Positions 14,955-64,000 of a stretch of DNA of 64,000 nucleotides are shown piece after piece (within the stretch, counting starts at the first letter, position 1; every line of letters starts with the position of its first letter). A program made the position numbers and the translations under genes. The notes below the pieces were generated by a model that saw only the letters and a list, made by a program, of their open reading frames with translations, was not told the origin of the DNA and ran no database searches. The stretch is from positions 310,001 through 374,000 of the forward strand of contig JAFCMP010000527.1 in assembly GCA_017506865.1 (NCBI GenBank), in the 5' to 3' direction. This DNA comes from Tribonema minus (Eukaryota; Sar; Xanthophyceae; Tribonematales; Tribonemataceae).

Positions 14955-16633
14955 TCAACGCTGGGTGGCCAGCACCGCAATCTTGTAGAAATAGGCAGCC
15001 CCCGGCACCTCAGACACCTGCAATCCTAGCTCGTGCATACCGTCAATGACTTCATTCTTGACAAGCAAGGGCATGCGCGTCCCCATGAATACATACCTGA
15101 ACGCCGAGGGTGACTTGTTGCGCAAGTCATGCGCCTCCGCGCGAAGTGCCGCCAGCGCCACCCCGACACCGCAGATGGTGACATCGAGCACTGTGCTCCC
15201 GGCATCCCGTGAGCGTGGGGGTTTATCGCGCACCATGTGCCATCCCCCACCCCTGCTGGTCCTTCGCATTTCCTTGTACAAACGCATGCCGCCCGCCGCC
15301 TCTGCGTCTCGCCAAAGTGCGTCCGCTGTGTCCGTGTCGCCTGCCTTGTGTGCCGCATCTATGGCCGCACTCCACATGCCTGGATGTAGCTTGTGGCCTA
15401 ACGCTGACAGGCGTTGTAGCCAAAACAGTACCCGCGACAGATTTCCCGCTTTGCTGTATTTCCACAGAAGTGCAATGGCCATGTCTGGATGAAAAGTACC
15501 GCTCATCAGGGCCGCCTCCAATGTGTCCTCCGCGCGAAGCATGAGCCCGCCTTGCGCGTACCCCTCAATGACCCAGCGATGATACGCAGGCGCGATCTCC
15601 ACTCCTGAGGCACTCATCTGTGAGACCAAGCTGTCGACCTCGGTTTGGTCACCGAGAGCTGCATGGGCCGCCAGCAGCAGGGAGTGCGTGACTGCATCGG
15701 GTGCAAGGCCGCGCTGTGTCATCTCGGCGGCCTTTTGTAGTGCTGACTGTGGATTGCCGCTTGCAATAATTGCATGCAGGAGCATATTCCACATGTGCAC
15801 ATTGACGAAGCTGGGATCGGTTACTCCATCTGAGCGAAGAGCTCCAGCGCACGCGGCATGTCACGCGACAGGCGGCACGCGCGCAGCATCGCCATGTATG
15901 TACCTTTGCCTGGGGCTACGCCAGCGTCCACCATTTGAAATTCCTTGAGCAGCGAATCAGCAGACTGCAAGGTAATTTGTGAGCGCAAAGCCCAATTGTA
16001 TGCTGTCACATCTGGCTTAGTGCCAGATTGCCTCATGAGTGCCAGCACACGCCATGCTTCCCTCGCTTCGCGTTTGGCAGCCACAGCCTCTAGAACGAGG
16101 TGAAAGAGCGAGATGTGGGGACGATGCCCGCATTTCACCATGCCGCCAAGAAACCCTGCCGCGCCATCCACATTGCCCTCCTCCAATTTCTTTCGCACGA
16201 CTTCTGAATAGGCGTCCGTGGCGACGAGCTGACGCTTCTCAGCGGTGGGTGCGTTGTCATGGCTACTGCTGCTGCTGCCTTCGCTGTTGCTGCGATTTGT
16301 TCTGCTGCTGACGCTTTGCTGTGGGTTGATTGATGGGAGTTTGCCTGACTCCAGTGCAGGATCCTGACGACCGTCGCCGGCAGCTGTGCCCGCCGCTGGA
16401 ACCTTCGTCGAGGACACGCCAGTAAAGGTGCGGCGCGCATAGTCGACGCCGCGACAGCTGCGCATCACATGGCCAGCTACGCCGCCTGTCGTGGTGAGCA
16501 CGCACAAGAACTCACTCTGCTGAACGTCTGTGGCGTGCTGGTTGCGCTGCCACTGCCTGGCAGTGGAGACCAGGAGCCGCTGGAGCTCCCTGCCAGCACG
16601 CCTGCGTTGCCATCGTGCAGCTGCTAGCATCAT
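14955..16633 (-). CDS. Pentatricopeptide repeat (PPR) protein, organelle-targeted, frame break in the middle
   Basis: PPR proteins bind organellar RNA and act in its processing, editing or translation. The start ATG at 16633 opens a basic N-terminus (MMLAAARWQRRRAGRELQR) typical of a mitochondrial or plastid presequence, followed by a Ser-rich linker and about eight PPR units. Clear ones include PHISLFHLVLEAVAAKREAR, KPDVTAYNWALRSQITLQ, GKGTYMAMLRACRLSRDM, VHMWNMLLHAIIASGNPQSA and PDAVTHSLLLAAHAALGD. The C-terminal about 90 residues (STVLDVTICGVGVALAALR, then AFRYVFMGTRMPLLVKN) are compatible with a degenerate Smr-like domain, which is a weaker call. The frame breaks at about 15,820-15,830: the N-terminal frame stops right after FAQME, and the C-terminal frame must be entered one base differently. 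An added base restores a normal ~35-residue PPR spacing, so this is either a sequencing error or a recent pseudogene. Confidence 0.8.
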
Positions 16634-16769
16634 CGCTGCCTCTTCTTCCGGACCGCTCCTCAAATCCAAGTTGAACGCAACTTCACTTGGCCGTGCTCTT
16701 GAAGTTGTATATTATGTCCTGGACCGCATGGGCTGCGCGCACGATAAATCGGGCTTGCAATAACTAAAT

Positions 16770-55983: not shown

Positions 55984-57300
55984 CAGAAAGCAGCGACAAT
56001 ACCATCAAAGTCATGTTGCCTATAGAAAGAGTACTTCAGCAAAGCACCACATGGCAGCAGTCGTTTCCAATGTCAGCAGGTGCTGGCATGACAGGCGTTG
56101 CCCTCAAGACATGCGCTGCAATCCAATGGCCACCACCCACCATGTGCGCATTAGTGGCACCTGGCGCCCCTCTAATGCGGACTGCGATGATGAGCAATTA
56201 TGATGGCGATGCCACCTATGGTGTATGGTTCTGACGACACAACTAGGTGCGACGTGAACTGTAATACTTGCTCTGAAGGCCGACGGCATGGATGTTGGCT
56301 GCGTTTATCACGACATGGCTGTGCACCTGTAAAGGCATGGCACAACGCAAACAAACGGGCTGTGCGCGAGTCCATCAGTGAGTCAAGAAACACTGAACTC
56401 ATTTAGCAGCCTACAGGCTCTTTAGTCCACCACTCTGGTAGTACTTGTGCAAGTATCCAGCTGGCATATGCAGCTTGGGGCCTCAAGCACACGTTGCTGA
56501 GCTGACACTCATAGTGGTCTTTGCATTTTGCAGCAAATGCCTGCAAGACTATCAAGATCTGTCATGCAAGGGGCAGGAGGAGCTGCCAACAAGGTGCCAC
56601 TGAACAATTGTACACCAGGTGCACCAGAGCTCATGAATTGCAATGCATGAGTCAGGGCACAAGACTAGCAATTGTGTACCTGTGACTTCTGTAGGAGCTG
56701 CTGATGCCGTAGCTGCAGATGCCGCAGTTGCCGTAAGCGGGGCGCCAGCTGCAGGAGTGTGCCAGGGGCAAGAACCACAAGGAGGAACATGAGCATTGCC
56801 ATTAATTTGCCATGAGACATCTAACGATAGTAGAGACAGACATGTTTGCTTGGCCCTAGCAATGGCAGTCTAAGCTGACGGCCAGTCAAGGTGCAAGCGC
56901 CTCCTCATTGCAAGCACTAGGTTATCTCAATTGCCAGTCATGCAGCGCGGTCATAGCTGAACACGCTCCAACGTATACTGAGCGTGGACAGCCGAAATTG
57001 TGCACACATCTGGTGTCCCTGCGCTGCGCCACTTCTGCTCATGGAAAAGTACCTGACGCAAGGATGCGTGCAGCAGCAGCAATGCTTTTAGAGCATGGAA
57101 ATATTTTATTGGCAGTTGCTACACAACTGGCAAGCAAACATGGTACCAAAATCCTGGCAAACAGACACCTACAACAAGGATTGGACATAGGCTACTAGTG
57201 GTACACATGGGATAGCGATCCTAAGCGCATTGTACTACGAGTATACTTTATAAAGGATGCTGATGGCGCATGACGCTCATAGCAAACGGGACAACACCTG
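55984..57300. other. Gap left of the integrated element
   Basis: No supported gene. A 94-codon open frame (about 56,911-57,198; RMRAAAAMLLEHGNILLAVA) has no recognised family. This is the last stretch with host character before the palindrome. Confidence 0.4.
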
Positions 57301-57338
57301 TGTGTTAGTACGGATTAGATCTAATCCGTACTAACACA
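57301..57338. repeat. Perfect 38-bp palindrome (candidate element terminus or recombination site)
   Basis: TGTGTTAGTACGGATTAGA is followed immediately by its exact reverse complement, with no spacer and no mismatch. It lies at the host-element transition. Confidence 0.95.
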
Positions 57339-57340
57339 TT

Positions 57341-57578
57341 GTAACCCGTAACTCACCCCCTGAAAACCATTTTTTAATTGTACGTTACACTGCATCCACA
57401 GCACCCCGCATATTCTGAGATTCAACCACATACCCCCGATTCTACATTGGCGCTTTGACTGCATTTTGTATATGGTGACATGTGGCAAACGGCATCCCGG
57501 CCCCGGCGACATGGTCACATTGATATCATTGCTTACATGCACTCGGTGTATAAATGGCCACCAAATGTTACGGGTTAC
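57341..57578. repeat. 11-bp inverted repeat next to the palindrome
   Basis: GTAACCCGTAA at 57,341-57,351 and its exact reverse complement TTACGGGTTAC at 57,568-57,578. It may mark binding sites near the element end. Confidence 0.7.
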
Positions 57579-57741
57579 CTACATGAATCCGGGACTACAT
57601 GTACGGTTTAACTGCATTCGATTATATGACCATACCCTACTGTCCGGAATCGGTACACGCGTATTCGTACACCACCTACTGGATATTGAAACATCGCCTA
57701 GTGACTTTGGTGGCTACAGATTGTTCCAGGGTGCACACTAG
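57472..57741 (+). CDS. Hypothetical small protein at element left end
   Basis: 89 codons from ATG (MVTCGKRHPGPGDMVTLISL ... IETSPSDFGGYRLFQGAH). No family is recognised. Its position in the element's left arm and ordinary composition make it a possible viral gene, but a minus frame over 57,321-57,542 is also open. Confidence 0.3.
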   Translation: MVTCGKRHPGPGDMVTLISLLTCTRCINGHQMLRVTYMNPGLHVRFNCIRLYDHTLLSGIGTRVFVHHLLDIETSPSDFGGYRLFQGAH

Positions 57742-57814
57742 GAAGGCCAGATTCTGAAAAAATACTTTTTACATCCGCCGCACACAAACGGCGCTTGACG
57801 ACGATACTGACACT

Positions 57815-57870
57815 ATTTAAATTAGGCTAATTAATTAAATTTAATTGATTAATTTGAAATTTATTCTGGA
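57815..57870. other. AT-rich patch
   Basis: ATTAATTAAATTTAATTGAT and neighbouring bases stand out from the surrounding sequence. It could be a promoter or replication-start region of the element; no motif proves this. Confidence 0.35.
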
Positions 57871-58346
57871 GCCAAACCCGTTCAGCTAACAAGGTGTCCT
57901 ACTTCCCTCTCTATATGCCAAAACTTTGTGGGAGGAAACAAATCTGAATGCTTACATTCTAGGTTGTAACATTGAATTGTGTGTAGGTGCCACTTTGACA
58001 CAGTGACCACATCTCATGGTTCTCTGAGCGAATCGTGTGTGTCGGCGGTTAGAGGGCCGATGGCTGTCGGCGGTTACAGGGCAGCATAGTGGAAGAGGTC
58101 ACTTCCTGTTCCATGCTTATAAGGGATGAATCCCCTTTCCCAAACAGGAATCCCCTAGAGAGAACTCCCAGGGGGGGCCCTGTGCCTGTGTTTTCGAGAT
58201 GGATTGTCACCCTTCGCGGACCCCATCTCATCACTTGCGTCTGTGAAACTCTTGATTCCAGAATATGCATGTTAGCACGACGCGCTTGCATCACATCAGC
58301 CACGCCAAAAAAATAATCTTGGTACGGAATTAAAATAACACACACC

Positions 58347-58529
58347 ATGGACCGGAATGCAACATGCACACGTGACTGGCGCAACTATGCGTATGCAGAT
58401 CGCCACAAGGCGAGGAGGGACGGCTGTGAGTTCGATCGAGACGCAAAGCGCTGGTACAAACCCAGCGTTGATTGCGAGATCGACATGACCGAGATCCTGA
58501 AACGTGCAAACGAACGCAGTCTTAAATGA
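58347..58529 (+). CDS. DUF5710-like mini-protein (60 aa)
   Basis: ATG in a strong context (CACACCATGG). The core AYADRHKARRDGCEFDRDAK then RWYKPS matches the pattern of the short DUF5710 module (Lys/Gly-Ala-x-Trp-Asp ... Lys-x-Trp-Tyr-x-Pro), a small fold often found beside or fused to DNA-handling enzymes in bacteria, phages and large viruses. The first Trp of that pattern is replaced. It lies just upstream of the recombinase on the same strand. The match is by eye. Confidence 0.5.
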   Translation: MDRNATCTRDWRNYAYADRHKARRDGCEFDRDAKRWYKPSVDCEIDMTEILKRANERSLK

Positions 58530-58600
58530 TACATACCCTATACCCGCCAAATGATACATACCCTATACCCGCCAAATGATGCATACCCTATACCCAAATT
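58527..58600 (+). repeat. Three-copy 25-bp direct repeat before the recombinase gene
   Basis: ATGATACATACCCTATACCC followed by GCCAA occurs twice fully and a third time with one change and a divergent end. It lies 60 bp upstream of the recombinase ATG, where a regulatory or protein-binding role is possible. Confidence 0.85.
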
Positions 58601-58657
58601 TTGTTCGCGCTAGATTGTGCATGATTTTTTTGTTGGCTTGGTTTCAAAGAAGTGATC

Positions 58658-60097
58658 ATGGGACATACAAAGAAGCTGACGCAGGATGAGCTCGACACCA
58701 TTTCCCCAGCCGGCATCGGCGGCACTCTATTGAAGTTACAGACAACATGGGATGATATGAAGGAGTATATGGAGCTAGACGACGAGGGCAGAGTGCCACG
58801 TGAGATCTTGTGTGTAGATGACGATGCCAGTGAAGACGACGTCAAGAATGCGACCACATCACACATTCGGTGTGCGCTCGATGCGTGGGCCGCAGCAGAG
58901 GCGGAGCTGCACGCGCAGTACACGGCGCTCAATAACAAGCCTGACAAGACTAAAGATGAAAAGGTACTTCTCGCCAAGTACACTGTGAATGGCGTGTCAA
59001 AAACAACAAAGTTCAAAAGCTGCAGTCAGGCAGAAAGGCGTCGGCTGTACTTACCCGAGCCTACCAAGAAATCAGCTACTAACATGGCGTTCACTCGCAT
59101 AAAAAAGTACATTGATAGGATAACTGAGAAGGGCGACACTCGCTACAGTTGGCTACGGGACATCATAGATGCGCCTGTTACTCGTGCGTCAATCGAGAGG
59201 AAGCGCGACGCCGGCCTCCTCTACAAACTAGAAAAGGGACGCATGCCGTACGATCTGCGAGGCGTCATGGAAGAGATCATCGCGTCGTTCGACACGTACA
59301 AGAAGCATGTGTGCGAGGACGACTGGCACCTGCATCTCAACATGATACTGCAGCCGCCTGTCGGCGTCCGGCGCACAGAGGTGACGACCGCAAGGGTTGC
59401 AGACGGCGGCATCATATTTACGCTCAAGAAGGGCAACACTTGTACGGGCGCAGTGAAGTGCGCGATGGAATACGACAAGTGGATGAGTCATTTCGAGCAG
59501 CTGAATAGCATGAGCATCACCGGGCGTAAGGCCGTCACCGTGGAGAGCGTGACCGAGTACATGCGCAGCGACCGCAACCCTCTCAAGAAACTCCAAAAGT
59601 TCATACGATCGTATGAGTCGTTCTATCATGGGTATCAGGCACCCAGGTTCACGCTTCACGACTTTCGCAAATTGTACGTGGGCTACTTTCTTTCGTTCGA
59701 CGAAGGCGACTCTGACTTGACGGCGGCAATGCGCGCATCCGTCCTACTCAACCACAACCCAGGTTCACCTGCAGGAGCGAAATATGCCATACTCAAACAC
59801 AGCGACTCAAAGTCCGAGTCAGACTCGAGTGTATCGAGTATTATGAGTGACTCAGTTGATGACGGTACAGTGACCGATACGTATGACAGTGATGACGGCT
59901 CTGTGACCGAGACGTATGACAGCGATGACGATTGTCAATGTGAAGACACGAGGGGACTGGCTGACATGGTGCAGCAGCGCAAGCGCAAGATTGAGGAACT
60001 GGAGAGTAGTATTATTGTCCTGGAGGCGATGATGAGACTGCCCGCCGCGCAACGCGCCAAGGTGGAGGCTAACTTTGATTTTGCTCTCCTGCCTTGA
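58658..60097 (+). CDS. Tyrosine recombinase / possible telomere-resolvase-like enzyme (479 aa)
   Basis: Breaks and rejoins DNA through a 3'-phosphotyrosine. Visible catalytic set: Arg238 in PPVGVRRTEVTTAR, a Lys in the hairpin FTLKKGN (about 253-254), His334-x-x-Arg337 in LHDFRKLYVGYF, His366 in LLNHNPGSPAGAKYAIL and nucleophile Tyr376. The N-terminal 200 residues include a Lys/Arg-rich helical region as expected for core-binding. After Tyr376 comes an acidic Ser/Asp tail (YDSDDGSVTETYDSDDD) and a short coiled coil (KRKIEELESSIIVLEAMM) absent from simple integrases. The preferred start is ATG 58658, two codons inside a longer GTG frame. Its 3' end overlaps the convergent integrase gene by 29 bp. 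Integrative versus hairpin-forming activity cannot be told from sequence alone. Confidence 0.85.
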   Translation: MGHTKKLTQDELDTISPAGIGGTLLKLQTTWDDMKEYMELDDEGRVPREILCVDDDASEDDVKNATTSHIRCALDAWAAAEAELHAQYTALNNKPDKTKDEKVLLAKYTVNGVSKTTKFKSCSQAERRRLYLPEPTKKSATNMAFTRIKKYIDRITEKGDTRYSWLRDIIDAPVTRASIERKRDAGLLYKLEKGRMPYDLRGVMEEIIASFDTYKKHVCEDDWHLHLNMILQPPVGVRRTEVTTARVADGGIIFTLKKGNTCTGAVKCAMEYDKWMSHFEQLNSMSITGRKAVTVESVTEYMRSDRNPLKKLQKFIRSYESFYHGYQAPRFTLHDFRKLYVGYFLSFDEGDSDLTAAMRASVLLNHNPGSPAGAKYAILKHSDSKSESDSSVSSIMSDSVDDGTVTDTYDSDDGSVTETYDSDDDCQCEDTRGLADMVQQRKRKIEELESSIIVLEAMMRLPAAQRAKVEANFDFALLP

Positions 60098-61307
60098 GGA
60101 CCGCACCACGAGGGAACTGCCTACCATCGAACTCTTCGAGAACGACCATGTTGCTGTTCGTCTGGTACTTGACCGTGTAAAGATCTTCTGAATAAACGGC
60201 TTCGTGACTTGCCTTGAACTGACCCGCCTTTCTCTTTAGCATCTTGCGTCCGTCGAGATACAAGCGATCGAGCCGCACCTTGTCGCCTCGCTCAAGCCGT
60301 GGATGGTACCGCGCGTTCGTGTCACCGCCCGCTGCCTTTTCATCAAGTCGCTGCTTCACTATCTTGCGCACACTCTCCTCCAGATTCGGCACCTGCAAGT
60401 CCGCCGGTCTGTACTGGTGCACATTGCTGATAGTAGTGTTGAACAGCTTCACGATGCGCTTCAAAGCAGGTTTGAAACTGCCGAGTGACTCGCCTTTGAT
60501 TGCCGCGTAAAGCGATTTTTTGAAGTTACCCTGTTGGGTTTCGATACTGCCGTTTCCGAGCGGATTACCAGCAGTGCTAAAGCGCTGGCGAAAGCCGAAC
60601 TCTTCAACAAGGTCAGTCATGCTCGTGTTCTTAAATTCGCTGCCATTGTCCGACACAACGACCAATTTTCGCGGGTCAGCGCCCTCTGCAACCATGTTTT
60701 GTAAAATGACGCGAAACTCTCTAGCGATGGTGCTTGCTTGCTTGTTGGCGATGGCAAACACCCAAATGTACTTGGTGAACTTGTCGATCACACAGAACAG
60801 CGCTTTAAACACACCCACCTGGGGAACGAGATCGGTGCAATCGACACTGAACAATGTGTATGGCCTGCTTGCCACAGACACCTTCGTGACCTGGGACCTG
60901 CGACGGATGCCCCATTCCTGGTGCTTTGCGTCACTGGCCAAGAACGCTGTGATCTGTTTGTTGGAGATGCCCACGTACAAGTTCTTCAGATGAGACCAGA
61001 ATTTCTGTCTACCAGTGGAGGGAGCACCAAGGTCAGCCCACTCCTTTCCTAGTATAGCAGGGATCATGTCTTGACTCAACACAATACGATTGCCAAACAT
61101 GAGTATACCGCCCTCTTCACTCATCTCGTCGCGCAGGTCCTCTGGCCATCTGTCCAGTACATCTTGATAATTCTTGAACTTGTGAGACTCAATTCGAATC
61201 TGCTTCTTGTGATTTTCGTCCCCCACCACCATGAGTGGCGGTTTCTTGCGGTCTTCGAGTTCGGCTGCTTTGGATATGATGGACGATAAAGATGGACCAG
61301 ATGCCAT
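60069..61307 (-). CDS. Retroviral-type (rve, DD35E) integrase (412 aa)
   Basis: Catalyses strand transfer of linear element DNA into the host genome. The rve core carries Asp156 (LFSVDCTDL), Asp220 (VVVSDNGSEF) and Glu256 (GNPLGNGSIETQQGNF), with exactly 35 residues between the last two. The pre-core segment (FWSHLKNLYVGISNKQITAF) resembles the region before the core in Polinton and virophage integrases; a canonical HHCC zinc finger is not evident. The C-terminal part (LERGDKVRLDRLYLDG, EDLYTVKYQTNSNMVVLEE) looks like a small SH3-like DNA-binding barrel. ATG is at 61307. It lies 43 bp downstream of the small-protein gene on the same strand, after an AATAAA-containing spacer, and converges with the recombinase gene. 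Confidence 0.92.
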   Translation of the reverse strand: MASGPSLSSIISKAAELEDRKKPPLMVVGDENHKKQIRIESHKFKNYQDVLDRWPEDLRDEMSEEGGILMFGNRIVLSQDMIPAILGKEWADLGAPSTGRQKFWSHLKNLYVGISNKQITAFLASDAKHQEWGIRRRSQVTKVSVASRPYTLFSVDCTDLVPQVGVFKALFCVIDKFTKYIWVFAIANKQASTIAREFRVILQNMVAEGADPRKLVVVSDNGSEFKNTSMTDLVEEFGFRQRFSTAGNPLGNGSIETQQGNFKKSLYAAIKGESLGSFKPALKRIVKLFNTTISNVHQYRPADLQVPNLEESVRKIVKQRLDEKAAGGDTNARYHPRLERGDKVRLDRLYLDGRKMLKRKAGQFKASHEAVYSEDLYTVKYQTNSNMVVLEEFDGRQFPRGAVLKAGEQNQS

Positions 61308-61350
61308 TTTTAGAACTGATGTGGTGCTTTACAAACTGCATAGATTTTAT

Positions 61351-61695
61351 TTAGATAGTTGTGATGTTGTCACCGGCCTCAGCAGTGATGCTGTTGACGG
61401 GGAAGCTAAGCAAGTGATTCACTAGGTACTTTGATGTGAAGTTGTTAGTTGTTGTCTCCCACACTCCTGTGGTCACACTTTTATTTGCGACCTCAGCGGC
61501 CAGATTTGTCTGAAGCACGGTACCCGCAACTTGCCTCTCATACAGGCACTCGGCGAGCGCGTACAGCAGCTTGGCGGTGTCATCGGCGGCCGTGACATCT
61601 GTTGCTAGCACTGCGTTCAGCGCGGTCCACGGAATGGTGAAGGCGCCAGCAGAATACGTGGCGCCGGGCAAAAGTGTGGCAATGGACATGGGCAT
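61351..61695 (-). CDS. Small virus-element protein of unknown function (114 aa)
   Basis: MPMSIATLLPGATYSAGAFT opens a Thr/Ala-rich acidic protein with no Cys-rich or charged motifs and one central helix (AADDTAKLLYALAECLYERQ). No family is recognised. Its place between the fibre gene and the integrase gene, same strand, with 51 bp to the fibre stop, suggests a structural or fibre-accessory role, which is inference only. Confidence 0.65.
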   Translation of the reverse strand: MPMSIATLLPGATYSAGAFTIPWTALNAVLATDVTAADDTAKLLYALAECLYERQVAGTVLQTNLAAEVANKSVTTGVWETTTNNFTSKYLVNHLLSFPVNSITAEAGDNITTI

Positions 61696-61699
61696 GGTG

Positions 61700-61715
61700 A
61701 GTGATATATATACAT
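61700..61715 (-). promoter_or_regulatory. TATA-like element before the small-protein gene
   Basis: On the minus strand GTATATATATCAC lies about 10-20 bases before the ATG at 61695. This is the only TATA-type run in the intergenic spacers of the element and would give a very short leader. Confidence 0.35.
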
Positions 61716-61746
61716 TGTGTCAATATTAAAAAATCGCAAGAACTTG

Positions 61747-64000
61747 CTAAGAGTGGTGGTACGCCATCCCCCCGTTGCAAACCACCTGGAAGTTATCGTC
61801 TGATGCCCCGGCATATACCTGCAACCCAATTGTGTATGTTGCACCTGCCGACACTGCAAATGTTGCCTGCGTCGTGTAATTGGCACTGTAGCCCACGTCG
61901 TCACCGCTCGCTCTTGGTAGCTTGCAATACGACACGCTGGTTCCAATGTTTACCCCGCCACTTCGAATATAAGGACGCACCCCCGTGCTGTCCGCCCCAC
62001 TGCCTGTTGAAATCCTGCCGTAGCCTCGTAAAATGATGGTCAACTTTGCGTTGCACGCGTACACTGACACGCCGAGCGGGCACAGCACGTCAGCGCCCGA
62101 TGTTGACCCGGTGACTGTCGTGTCCACCTCGATCGGATACGACTCGCTGCCTCGCGCGTTGACGACGGCACTCGCAAACACATATCTACACGCTACGTCA
62201 CCGGTCGCGTTGAGTGATCCAGACGTGACGAGGTTGGCGGCAGTGACGGTGCCCGACGCTGTCAGCGAGCCAGAGGGACTGATGGTAGTGTGTGTCACAT
62301 TGTTCGCTCTGAAGTGATAGGCTGCCGCGCTGTACGTGTTGAACCAAAGCGTATTCCCATCGATGCCGATAGCATAGTCTGAGACCCCGGGCGTTCCAGC
62401 GCCTGCAGTGGGGTAGAGACGGATTCTAGTGCCCGCTGCTGTCCCAGGCGCGCCTGCACCTAGGCCAAATTCAAGCCACTGGAAGTTCCCGAGCGTCATC
62501 GTGTTGCTAATCGCCGACACGATGCGTGTGCTGAGCGCCTGTATCTGACGTCCGTAGTCCTTCTGCAGCACAGGTCTCTGCGGCCTCACTGCGACGATGT
62601 TATTGATTCTGTCGCTGAGAGCCTTGATCACTCGTGCAAAGTTCTGGGAGAGAGACGGCCTGGCTCTGGCTGAGCCCGACGAGCTGACGCGCGCGCTGAG
62701 CGCTGCAATCTGCCTGCCGTAATCCTTGCTCAGTTGAGGCTTGGCCAGACGTGTGACAGCGCTCACCCTGGTGGACAGCGCTTGCACAATGTATGCAAAC
62801 GATTTGCTGATTGTAGGCTTGACGCCGCGCCTGACGCTTGACACCAGCGCCTGCACCTTGTTCATTTTCGTCGACACGATCACAGGTGCCACGGGTCTGA
62901 ACTTGCGCACAGGTGCCCCGTTCAGCGACACTACACTCAGTGAGTTGGCCTGCACCGAGTTCGTCACCAGTCCTCCGCCCACCGTCATCGTCGCGTGGGG
63001 CCCTAGGTAAATTGCTATTTCTGCTGCGTTATTGGACAAGCCGGTCGACGGGTTTACATCTTCAAGTTGAAGTGCTAACCCCGCGGCGCCCCTCACATTC
63101 AGAGCACCGCCGCCAATGACATCAGTGTTGGACTCAGTACAAGTCAGCTTGCCGTCGACCGTGATTGAGCCGTGTTGACCTAGGTACACTGCAATGTCAT
63201 CCGGGTTCGTCAGCGCGAACGTGTCGGGGTCGAGCACTGCTGTTTCGAGCGCGAGCCCGCACGCGCCGCTCGCGTTGATGGTCTTACACGTCAGCCCGCC
63301 GTCCGTGTTGAATGCGGCGGCATCAATAGTGCCGTCATTCTGCACCAGTGCGTTCGTGCCCATGTACACGCAAGGATTGCTAGGGTTCTCGAGAACAAGA
63401 TTGGAGTACGTAGCAGTTGACTTGGCCAAGTGAACCACGCCATCAATGTCCATCGTCTCGGTGAAATGAGCGTTGCCGTCGCAGTCAAAACAGTAAAAGG
63501 GCATGGCATTGTTGACCCCCACTTTGCCCTTGGCGCGCACGAGTTCATCGGGTAGGCCGGCCTTGAATATGCCGGCTGGTGCGAGTGTTATAGGCGCCAT
63601 CGTATTTGTCTCGTTTTCGGGGTCATAGTCCGGCGTGAAGTCATCAGGAATGTCCCCGTCATACCCGGGCGGTTTCGGCGGCCAAATCTTCGATATCATG
63701 CCGCTCGCGACCAAGGCATCGAATGCGGCTTGGCCTGCATCTACGGCCATATTAGCGGCACTCTCAATTTCCAAAACCAGCACCTTTTCCTCTAGCGTCT
63801 TGATCGAGCCCTCTACGTCTTCAACTGTGCCCGCTTGAACTATGCCTGGGCACATGAGATGTGGCGATACTGTCACTGCTACGCCGTCCAACGTGACGCT
63901 CGAACTCATACTTACATTCGCGTCTATGGTCGCCAACTGCGCCACCGCTGACGTAGTTGAAGTCGCCGGCGTGACTTGCAATATGCCGCCACCGTACTCA
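61747..64000 (-). CDS. Fibre-like receptor-binding protein, open at the window edge (5' partial)
   Basis: At least 750 residues; the frame is still open at base 64,000, so the N-terminus is missing. The shaft has repeated beta-type segments (AVYLGQHGSITVDGKLTC, IAIYLGPHATMTVGGGLV, PCVYMGTNALVQNDGTIDA). Next come five helical units of about 26-28 residues with the theme KPxLSKDYGRQIxALSTRV (about 62,500-62,890). A fibre-tip region (AYHFRANNVTHTTISPSGSL, VTAANLVTSGSLNATGDVAC) follows. The C-terminal globular beta domain (TIGLQVYAGASDDNFQVVCN, GGMAYHHS) is of the C1q/TNF-like jelly-roll type common at fibre ends. Such proteins form trimers and contact the host surface. A phage- or adenovirus-style fibre fits a virion-forming element rather than a simple transposon. 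Confidence 0.75.
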   Translation of the reverse strand, partial: EYGGGILQVTPATSTTSAVAQLATIDANVSMSSSVTLDGVAVTVSPHLMCPGIVQAGTVEDVEGSIKTLEEKVLVLEIESAANMAVDAGQAAFDALVASGMISKIWPPKPPGYDGDIPDDFTPDYDPENETNTMAPITLAPAGIFKAGLPDELVRAKGKVGVNNAMPFYCFDCDGNAHFTETMDIDGVVHLAKSTATYSNLVLENPSNPCVYMGTNALVQNDGTIDAAAFNTDGGLTCKTINASGACGLALETAVLDPDTFALTNPDDIAVYLGQHGSITVDGKLTCTESNTDVIGGGALNVRGAAGLALQLEDVNPSTGLSNNAAEIAIYLGPHATMTVGGGLVTNSVQANSLSVVSLNGAPVRKFRPVAPVIVSTKMNKVQALVSSVRRGVKPTISKSFAYIVQALSTRVSAVTRLAKPQLSKDYGRQIAALSARVSSSGSARARPSLSQNFARVIKALSDRINNIVAVRPQRPVLQKDYGRQIQALSTRIVSAISNTMTLGNFQWLEFGLGAGAPGTAAGTRIRLYPTAGAGTPGVSDYAIGIDGNTLWFNTYSAAAYHFRANNVTHTTISPSGSLTASGTVTAANLVTSGSLNATGDVACRYVFASAVVNARGSESYPIEVDTTVTGSTSGADVLCPLGVSVYACNAKLTIILRGYGRISTGSGADSTGVRPYIRSGGVNIGTSVSYCKLPRASGDDVGYSANYTTQATFAVSAGATYTIGLQVYAGASDDNFQVVCNGGMAYHHS

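Follow-up and report, generated by a model that had tools for sequence, protein, structure and literature searches.

Mid-GC EMALE virophages of types 5-7 in Cafeteria burkhardae carry both an integrase of the rve type and a tyrosine recombinase (YR) (PMC8547959). In a survey of 8300 Polinton-like viruses (PLVs), an rve and a recombinase of the YREC type occur together only where the rve is that of a nested retrotransposon (PMC12220804); divergent YRs like the one considered below may have been missed there. Here we describe one complete Polinton-like provirus of 19.0 kb in the genome of the yellow-green (xanthophyte) alga Tribonema minus (158 Mb and 554 contigs; names beginning with C are its contigs). 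Its left third is covered by the window, which is the whole analysed stretch of 64,000 nucleotides (C524:310001-374000); window-frame numbering continues past 64000 on the same contig. The provirus encodes an rve integrase and a YR and is bounded by palindromes. It probably belongs to a PLV lineage that divides the work on its DNA: the rve integrase would insert the genome, and the YR would use the palindromes to excise the provirus and, perhaps, to make hairpin ends. An earlier note, made from the letters of this stretch, had taken the combination of the two enzymes as unusual; the EMALE virophages show that it has precedent (PMC8547959).

The element spans position 57301 of the window to window-frame position 76337 (19,037 bp). 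The start given in the earlier note, 57301, is exactly where the left terminal inverted repeat (TIR) begins, and the two enzymes had rightly been described there as lying tail to tail with an overlap of 29 bp; this figure is exact when stop codons are included. The features within the window are as follows.

57296..57300, plus strand: 5-bp target-site duplication ACCTG, with the second copy directly after the right palindrome
57301..58006, plus strand: left TIR, 706 bp; the partner of 708 bp is at C524:385630-386337 (window-frame 75630-76337)
57301..57338, no strand: terminal perfect palindrome of 38 bp, TG...CA; the same 38 bp stand at the right end
58652..60097, plus strand: YR of 481 aa with an acidic tail, called from the open reading frame (ORF) and its catalytic boxes
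60069..60097, no strand: overlap of the YR and rve coding ends, 29 bp with stop codons counted
60069..61307, minus strand: rve-type DD35E integrase of 412 aa (PF00665, 5.5e-12; D156/D220/E256)
61351..61695, minus strand: ORF for a protein of 114 aa with no assigned function
61747..64000, continuing to window-frame 64326, minus strand: fibre-like protein, 859 aa in all, so called from its composition

Five complete elements were found in the genome, on C524, C522, C146, C57 and C157. The TIR of each starts with a palindrome that has TG first and CA last. The palindrome measures 38 bp at both ends of the C524 element, 49 and 48 bp in C522, and 30 bp at both ends in C146, C57 and C157. Duplications of 5 bp adjoin the outer palindrome edges in all five elements; they are exact in four (ACCTG in C524; TGCTT, ACTTG and TGTTT in the others) and inexact in C57 (GTTAG/GCTAG, four of five letters). 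Since 5-bp duplications at the palindrome edges are the mark of an rve enzyme, the rve integrase most likely made these insertions, with the whole palindrome being part of the joined DNA. The residues D156, D220 and E256 are invariant in the window rve and four aligned relatives, giving a D-D-35-E arrangement, and the C524 element thus combines the DDE triad, the TG..CA ends and the short duplication of a retroviral-type integrase element. The C524 TIRs are 95.8% identical over 708 columns, and 16 of the 30 differences fall in repeat positions 601-700. The C157 element (C157:1058050-1095687) has 37.6 kb between its palindromes, about twice the length of the others, perhaps owing to an insertion inside it.

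The palindromes were also looked for at other loci. Inverted repeats with arms of at least 13 gave 16 rows in 325,733 bases of partly overlapping, element-rich loci (the end of C133 is counted twice); 14 of these run TG..CA, and in a 15th, on C490, the TG..CA lies one base inwards. No inverted repeat with such arms was present in five Markov resamples of the window, 64 kb each. At seven of 15 capsid-gene loci, taken with 1.5-kb flanks, a TG..CA inverted repeat with arms of at least 12 is present, and single inverted repeats at such loci are presumed to be element ends except where both ends were found. A pattern search for C133-type palindromes, allowing three mismatches, returned seven in four variants, two of the seven being one locus on the duplicate contigs C123 and C348. 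Each difference in one arm of these palindromes is mirrored in the other arm. The C157 palindromes have different centres at the two ends, each of them symmetric. The palindrome arms of C524 and C201 are identical at 36 of 36 positions, compared with 71% over 316 columns for the alignment as a whole. A mirrored change would be expected from hairpin copying, and strong selection for symmetry would yield it too.

The 18-bp half-site of the C524 palindrome occurs eight times in the 158-Mb genome with one mismatch allowed. All eight copies are exact and form four back-to-back pairs: the two C524 ends, the C201 end, which has the same arms and another centre, and a lone copy at C101:367767-367804. 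The lone palindrome equals that of the window at 38 of 38 bp and is flanked by GTTGG on both sides. In the 3 kb around it, blastn detected no TIR or element DNA (only short repeats that occur elsewhere in the host too), and four element proteins used as tblastn queries gave nothing above noise. In its simplest reading, the C101 locus is an apparent excision scar, left by an rve insertion with a 5-bp duplication and the subsequent loss of everything between the palindromes. Because opposed TIRs would invert and not delete the DNA between them by ordinary recombination, the deletion needs the palindrome itself. This points to the YR, repair between the 38-bp repeats being the alternative.

The ORF at 58652..60097 is identical over its full length to part of JKP88DRAFT_248916 of Tribonema minus. 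It contains the boxes GVRRTEV (238), TLHDFRKL (334) and LLNHNPGSPAGAKY (365), which we take to be the R..HxxR..H..Y signature of tyrosine recombinases. The corresponding boxes in the sole relative detected outside this genome, the metagenomic protein P0002 (42% identical), are GRRRGEV, RLHDLRKL and LLGHNPGSPAGRNY. All boxes being kept, the ORF is a putative tyrosine recombinase by its motifs. No recombinase model in Pfam, NCBIfam or PHROGs matched it, the only matches there being to weak unrelated or unnamed models, and PDB sequence searches with the YRs returned weak, unrelated matches only. P0002 touches the phage integrase family phrog_1 with an E-value of 0.001. A profile of three clearer YRs aligns faintly with the window YR at the last two boxes (hhalign E 0.08, probability 0.7%).

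Of the complete elements, C524, C522 and C146 were read at the place of the YR, and all three have one; a YR is also found in C160 and C92, and its N-terminal part in C490. In C146 it lies beside the terminal palindrome, at the end away from the capsid gene. This element had first been noted as lacking a YR, and the gene at its far end led us to reject palindrome length as a divider between elements with and without a YR. The tail-to-tail overlap of YR and rve recurs in C522 (29 bp, stops included) and C160 (38 bp). The YRs of these two elements are about 25-28% identical, and neither is found by tblastn with the window YR at E 0.1. Since the layout is kept in spite of such divergence, it has outlasted most of the sequence, and chance nesting is unlikely. 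Over the 178 aa that were read, the YR of C490 is 61% identical to that of C92, and the palindromes of these two elements share GTATAATAT..ATATTATAC.

We propose the following division of labour. In the first step, which the anatomy of the ends strongly supports, the rve integrase would insert the linear viral genome, joining its 3'-CA ends to host DNA with a 5-bp stagger. In the second step, the YR would recognise the terminal palindromes as inverted two-arm sites and recombine both provirus ends. The products would be a circular virus with one palindrome and a chromosome with one palindrome between 5-bp duplications. In a third, hypothetical step, the palindrome would be resolved into two hairpin ends in the fashion of a telomere resolvase; the rve would then nick the hairpin base (CA|TT), and unfolding and fill-in would restore a full palindrome at each end. 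One enzyme may perform both the second and the third step, as bacterial telomere resolvases are capable of recombining their palindromes as well. A hairpin stage is favoured because the excised virus would have one palindrome and every complete provirus seen has two. The earlier note had suggested that the rve inserts and the YR resolves the ends or excises. That suggestion fits the TG..CA ends with 5-bp duplications, the terminal palindromes and the one excision-like scar, from which we infer the role of the YR. Excision is read from that one scar, and the hairpin ends are a hypothesis. More tentatively, and with rather less than even confidence, we consider that these are PLVs with hairpin telomeres: their linear ends would be hairpins made by their own telomere-resolvase-like YR, the rve would open the hairpin bases, insertion would rebuild the palindromes, and palindrome resolution or recombination would leave a one-palindrome scar with a 5-bp duplication.

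That the YR is an ordinary site-specific recombinase, acting on the palindromes in excision, dimer resolution or inversion with no hairpins involved, seems somewhat unlikely to us. The virion genome would then be linear with open ends, perhaps capped by protein. The C101 scar is the product expected of conservative recombination between two palindromes, and the window YR is not telomere-resolvase-like by profile: it has no PF16684 match, hhalign gives a probability of 0.2%, and, unlike the profile of the C522, C160 and C92 YRs, it does not align with the strong PF16684 proteins. That profile aligns with two strong T. minus PF16684 proteins in hhalign (95%, 2.4e-8). Excision by an ordinary recombinase would take one of the two palindromes, so that a route to regenerate two is required, and the symmetry mirrored in the diverging palindromes also speaks against it. 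Recombinase sites that have a polar core do not usually show such symmetry. For the C522 and C146 YRs the top Pfam score is that of the ResT-TelK model. The C522 YR matches PF16684 (ResT-TelK_cat) over the catalytic domain, with 5.6e-6 as a protein and with 28 bits in the genome search, and the YR beside the rve of C224 matches it with 17.4 bits over a short stretch. Recombination of palindromic junctions in the manner of Cre can be obtained with ResT and TelA (PMC13221069), and the telomere-resolvase and plain-recombinase readings are therefore close neighbours.

Several observations weigh against the proposed division of labour. As a protein, the C522 YR scores 26.5 bits, only at the PF16684 cut-off of 27, and the C146 YR (0.0014, 18.7 bits) is far below it. 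The best Pfam match of the C160 YR is Phage_integrase (0.022, against 0.18 for PF16684), and the C92 YR has no telomere-resolvase match in Pfam. Besides PF16684, the C522 YR has weaker matches to integrase models (XerA 0.0068, phrog_216 0.0033), so that the YRs of C160 and C522, like P0002, lend some support to an ordinary recombinase. The likeness of the C92 and C490 YRs lies outside the catalytic domain of C490, which the 178 aa read exclude. The right palindrome of C522 is short of one central base, an exception to the symmetry. The scar is a single case that host repair between two 38-bp repeats could produce; the palindromes of C146, C57 and C522 have genome copies only at their own element ends, the search for lone ones giving a single half-site-like stretch with two mismatches on C153. 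No palindrome is present within 1.5 kb of the rve at any of seven loci of a second rve family, the ends of those loci being outside the view.

The C101 palindrome may instead have arisen by chance or have been inserted directly as a 38-bp double end, which we regard as unlikely. In its favour, the clear case is one only, and C126:31010-31039 (L067) bears a lone 30-bp C133-type palindrome, with two mirrored changes, that has neither a 5-bp duplication nor an adjoining TIR and so also counts against excision. The identity of C101 with the element end at 38 of 38 bp, together with the 5-bp duplication, speaks for a scar. An integrase complex would scarcely be bound by a donor of 38 bp.

It is less likely still that the palindromes serve the integrase and replication only, through parvovirus-like fold-back self-priming, with the YR kept for another task such as integration into a helper giant virus. 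The palindrome edges are the rve joining points in all five complete elements, which agrees with such a use, and the likely role given to the YRs of the EMALE virophages is integration into giant viruses (PMC8547959). This reading would leave unexplained both the telomere-resolvase likeness of the relatives' YRs and the presence of a lone palindrome between 5-bp duplications. Two nested elements, a YR transposon beside an rve element with no functional link, can be practically dismissed. In favour of nesting are the strong divergence of the YRs from element to element and the known occurrence of Ngaro YR retrotransposons inside virophages (PMC8547959). Against it, both enzymes lie within a single TIR pair, no other long repeat pair being found between the two stretches on either side of them, and the overlapping pair recurs in the divergent elements C522 and C160; this largely settles the concern of the earlier note that the enzymes might belong to separate elements.

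The gene order in the C524 element is YR (+), rve (-), 114 aa (-), fibre-like 859 aa (-), Gly-rich 534 aa (-), packaging ATPase 267 aa (-), 153 aa (-), penton-like 288 aa (+), major capsid protein-like 434 aa (+), 132 aa (+), 138 aa (+) and primase-helicase 1127 aa (+). The ATPase is of the A32/FtsK type (PF04665 Pox_A32, 2.6e-6, 27.5 bits, over the cut-off of 22.8). The primase-helicase combines an AEP primase domain (PF23162, 2e-23) with a helicase-type domain (PF19263, 3.1e-13). Judged by place, size and kinship within the genome, the 434-aa ORF probably encodes the major capsid protein and the 288-aa ORF the penton; neither had a sequence match in Pfam, PHROGs or PDB. Across the genome there are 41 capsid-gene matches, many on contigs that also hold rve relatives. 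The earlier note had proposed looking for a double jelly-roll capsid, a packaging ATPase, a protease and a polymerase to the right of the window, and had considered that capsid and replication genes might be lacking there. The ATPase, the probable capsid genes and the primase-helicase are on the same contig; among the 13 ORF pieces scanned, none was recognised as a protease or a family B polymerase (PolB). The fibre gene of the note is a real ORF that crosses the window edge, and its identity as a fibre found no model match. A small ORF resembling the 114-aa one adjoins the fibre-like ORF of C522, as compared by eye. The A32/FtsK-type ATPase and the TIRs of hundreds of base pairs are as in PLVs and other proviruses of the Preplasmiviricota. 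Of the protein-primed PolB and rve that define a Maverick/Polinton in the strict sense, the rve is there and PolB is unmatched, an AEP primase-helicase being found instead.

Satellite-like host arrays (C157:162-229 kb, C510:4-95 kb, C114:215-233 kb, C228 and C445) contain many sequences that resemble the inner half of the TIR (window 57630-58006), for the most part at 76-88%; the loci L030, L033 and L037 are internally repetitive. By eye, similar-looking pentatricopeptide-like frames on the same strand flank the provirus (window 14955-16669 and L010:6628-8301).

The second rve family (L002-L008; about 20 loci) has DNA about 69-97% alike among the seven loci read, and its protein is 34-38% alike to the window rve. 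A weak ResT-TelK match is often found no more than 8 kb from its members, the layout being convergent in some cases and divergent in others. Over the whole genome, 21 of 54 rve loci, C522 among them, have a PF16684 match within 8 kb, compared with about 0.26 expected. For this count the 54 loci were obtained from 101 rows by merging same-locus fragments and dropping weak retrotransposon-integrase-like rows, and 48 of 52 PF16684 rows were used, four matches of about 24 positions being dropped. The weak matches near the second family were rejected as proof of a functional pair, the four ORFs read (L059-L062) apparently lacking an H..Y box; these ORFs may be decayed or spliced. In IMG/VR, a scan with the rve gave 37 stretches with one distant rve match (26%), a scan with the YR one unconfirmed stretch, and a scan with the capsid 20 stretches, none confirmed.

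The genome also contains 12 strong PF16684 loci (70-102 bits), one of them at C524:173830-174315. Giant-virus capsid genes are found 43-57 kb away from those on C179, C90 and C21 and from one on C223; on C112 the two are 436 kb apart, and no capsid gene showed on the remaining contigs. At least some of the strong telomere-resolvase genes thus belong to endogenous giant viruses. This neighbourhood is expected, because phaeoviruses have both an N15-like palindrome and a telomere resolvase of their own (PMC13236599).

Among the described systems, the EMALE virophages of types 5-7 are like the C524 element in having rve and YR in a small capsid-coding provirus with TIRs and short duplications; unlike in C524, palindromic ends or a scar are undescribed, the strings 'palindrom' and 'hairpin' having no occurrence in the main text of the paper (PMC8547959). 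PLVs of cryptophytes and other protists share its size, its TIRs and either an rve with 5-6 bp duplications or a YREC, and the rve of C524 stands alone, in contrast to the retrotransposon rve of the co-occurrences in that survey (PMC12220804). The PLV of Monoraphidium neglectum has a PLV-type capsid gene and an rve integrase as C524 does; it differs in having a pDNAP, and a YR is unmentioned in the text accessible (PMC4642659). Palindromic repeats near both genome ends are described for the virophage DSLV3, and hairpins for giant viruses. The endogenous phaeoviruses of Ectocarpus are likewise algal proviruses with a tyrosine recombinase, and are similar for their telomere resolvase, N15-like palindrome and fold-back Nanopore reads; they differ as giant viruses with an internal linearisation site, a YR separate from the telomere resolvase, and insertion ascribed to the YR (PMC13236599). 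In phage N15 (TelN/telRL) and with other bacterial telomere resolvases, a palindrome of similar length is resolved by a relative of tyrosine recombinases (PMC13221069, PMC13236599). These systems differ in being bacterial and not rve-integrating, and no homology of the window YR to members of that family is demonstrable. In the literature searched, with most subscription journals outside it, no palindromic PLV ends and no such scars were found among the papers listed, and no paper there joined a telomere resolvase with a Polinton. The earlier note had seen here its best candidate for an undescribed system. The co-occurrence of rve and YR is a new case of a known thing; what seems to be new are the scar, the palindromes at the ends and the probable link between these palindromes and the YR. 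The second integration enzyme of virophages has so far been without a shown role (PMC8547959), and the ends, mirrored palindrome changes and apparent scar described here suggest a concrete division of labour. If true, this would suggest a way in which small DNA viruses of eukaryotes, with linear genomes and no recognised protein-primed polymerase, complete their ends, and would tie such viruses to the telomere resolvases of algal giant viruses.

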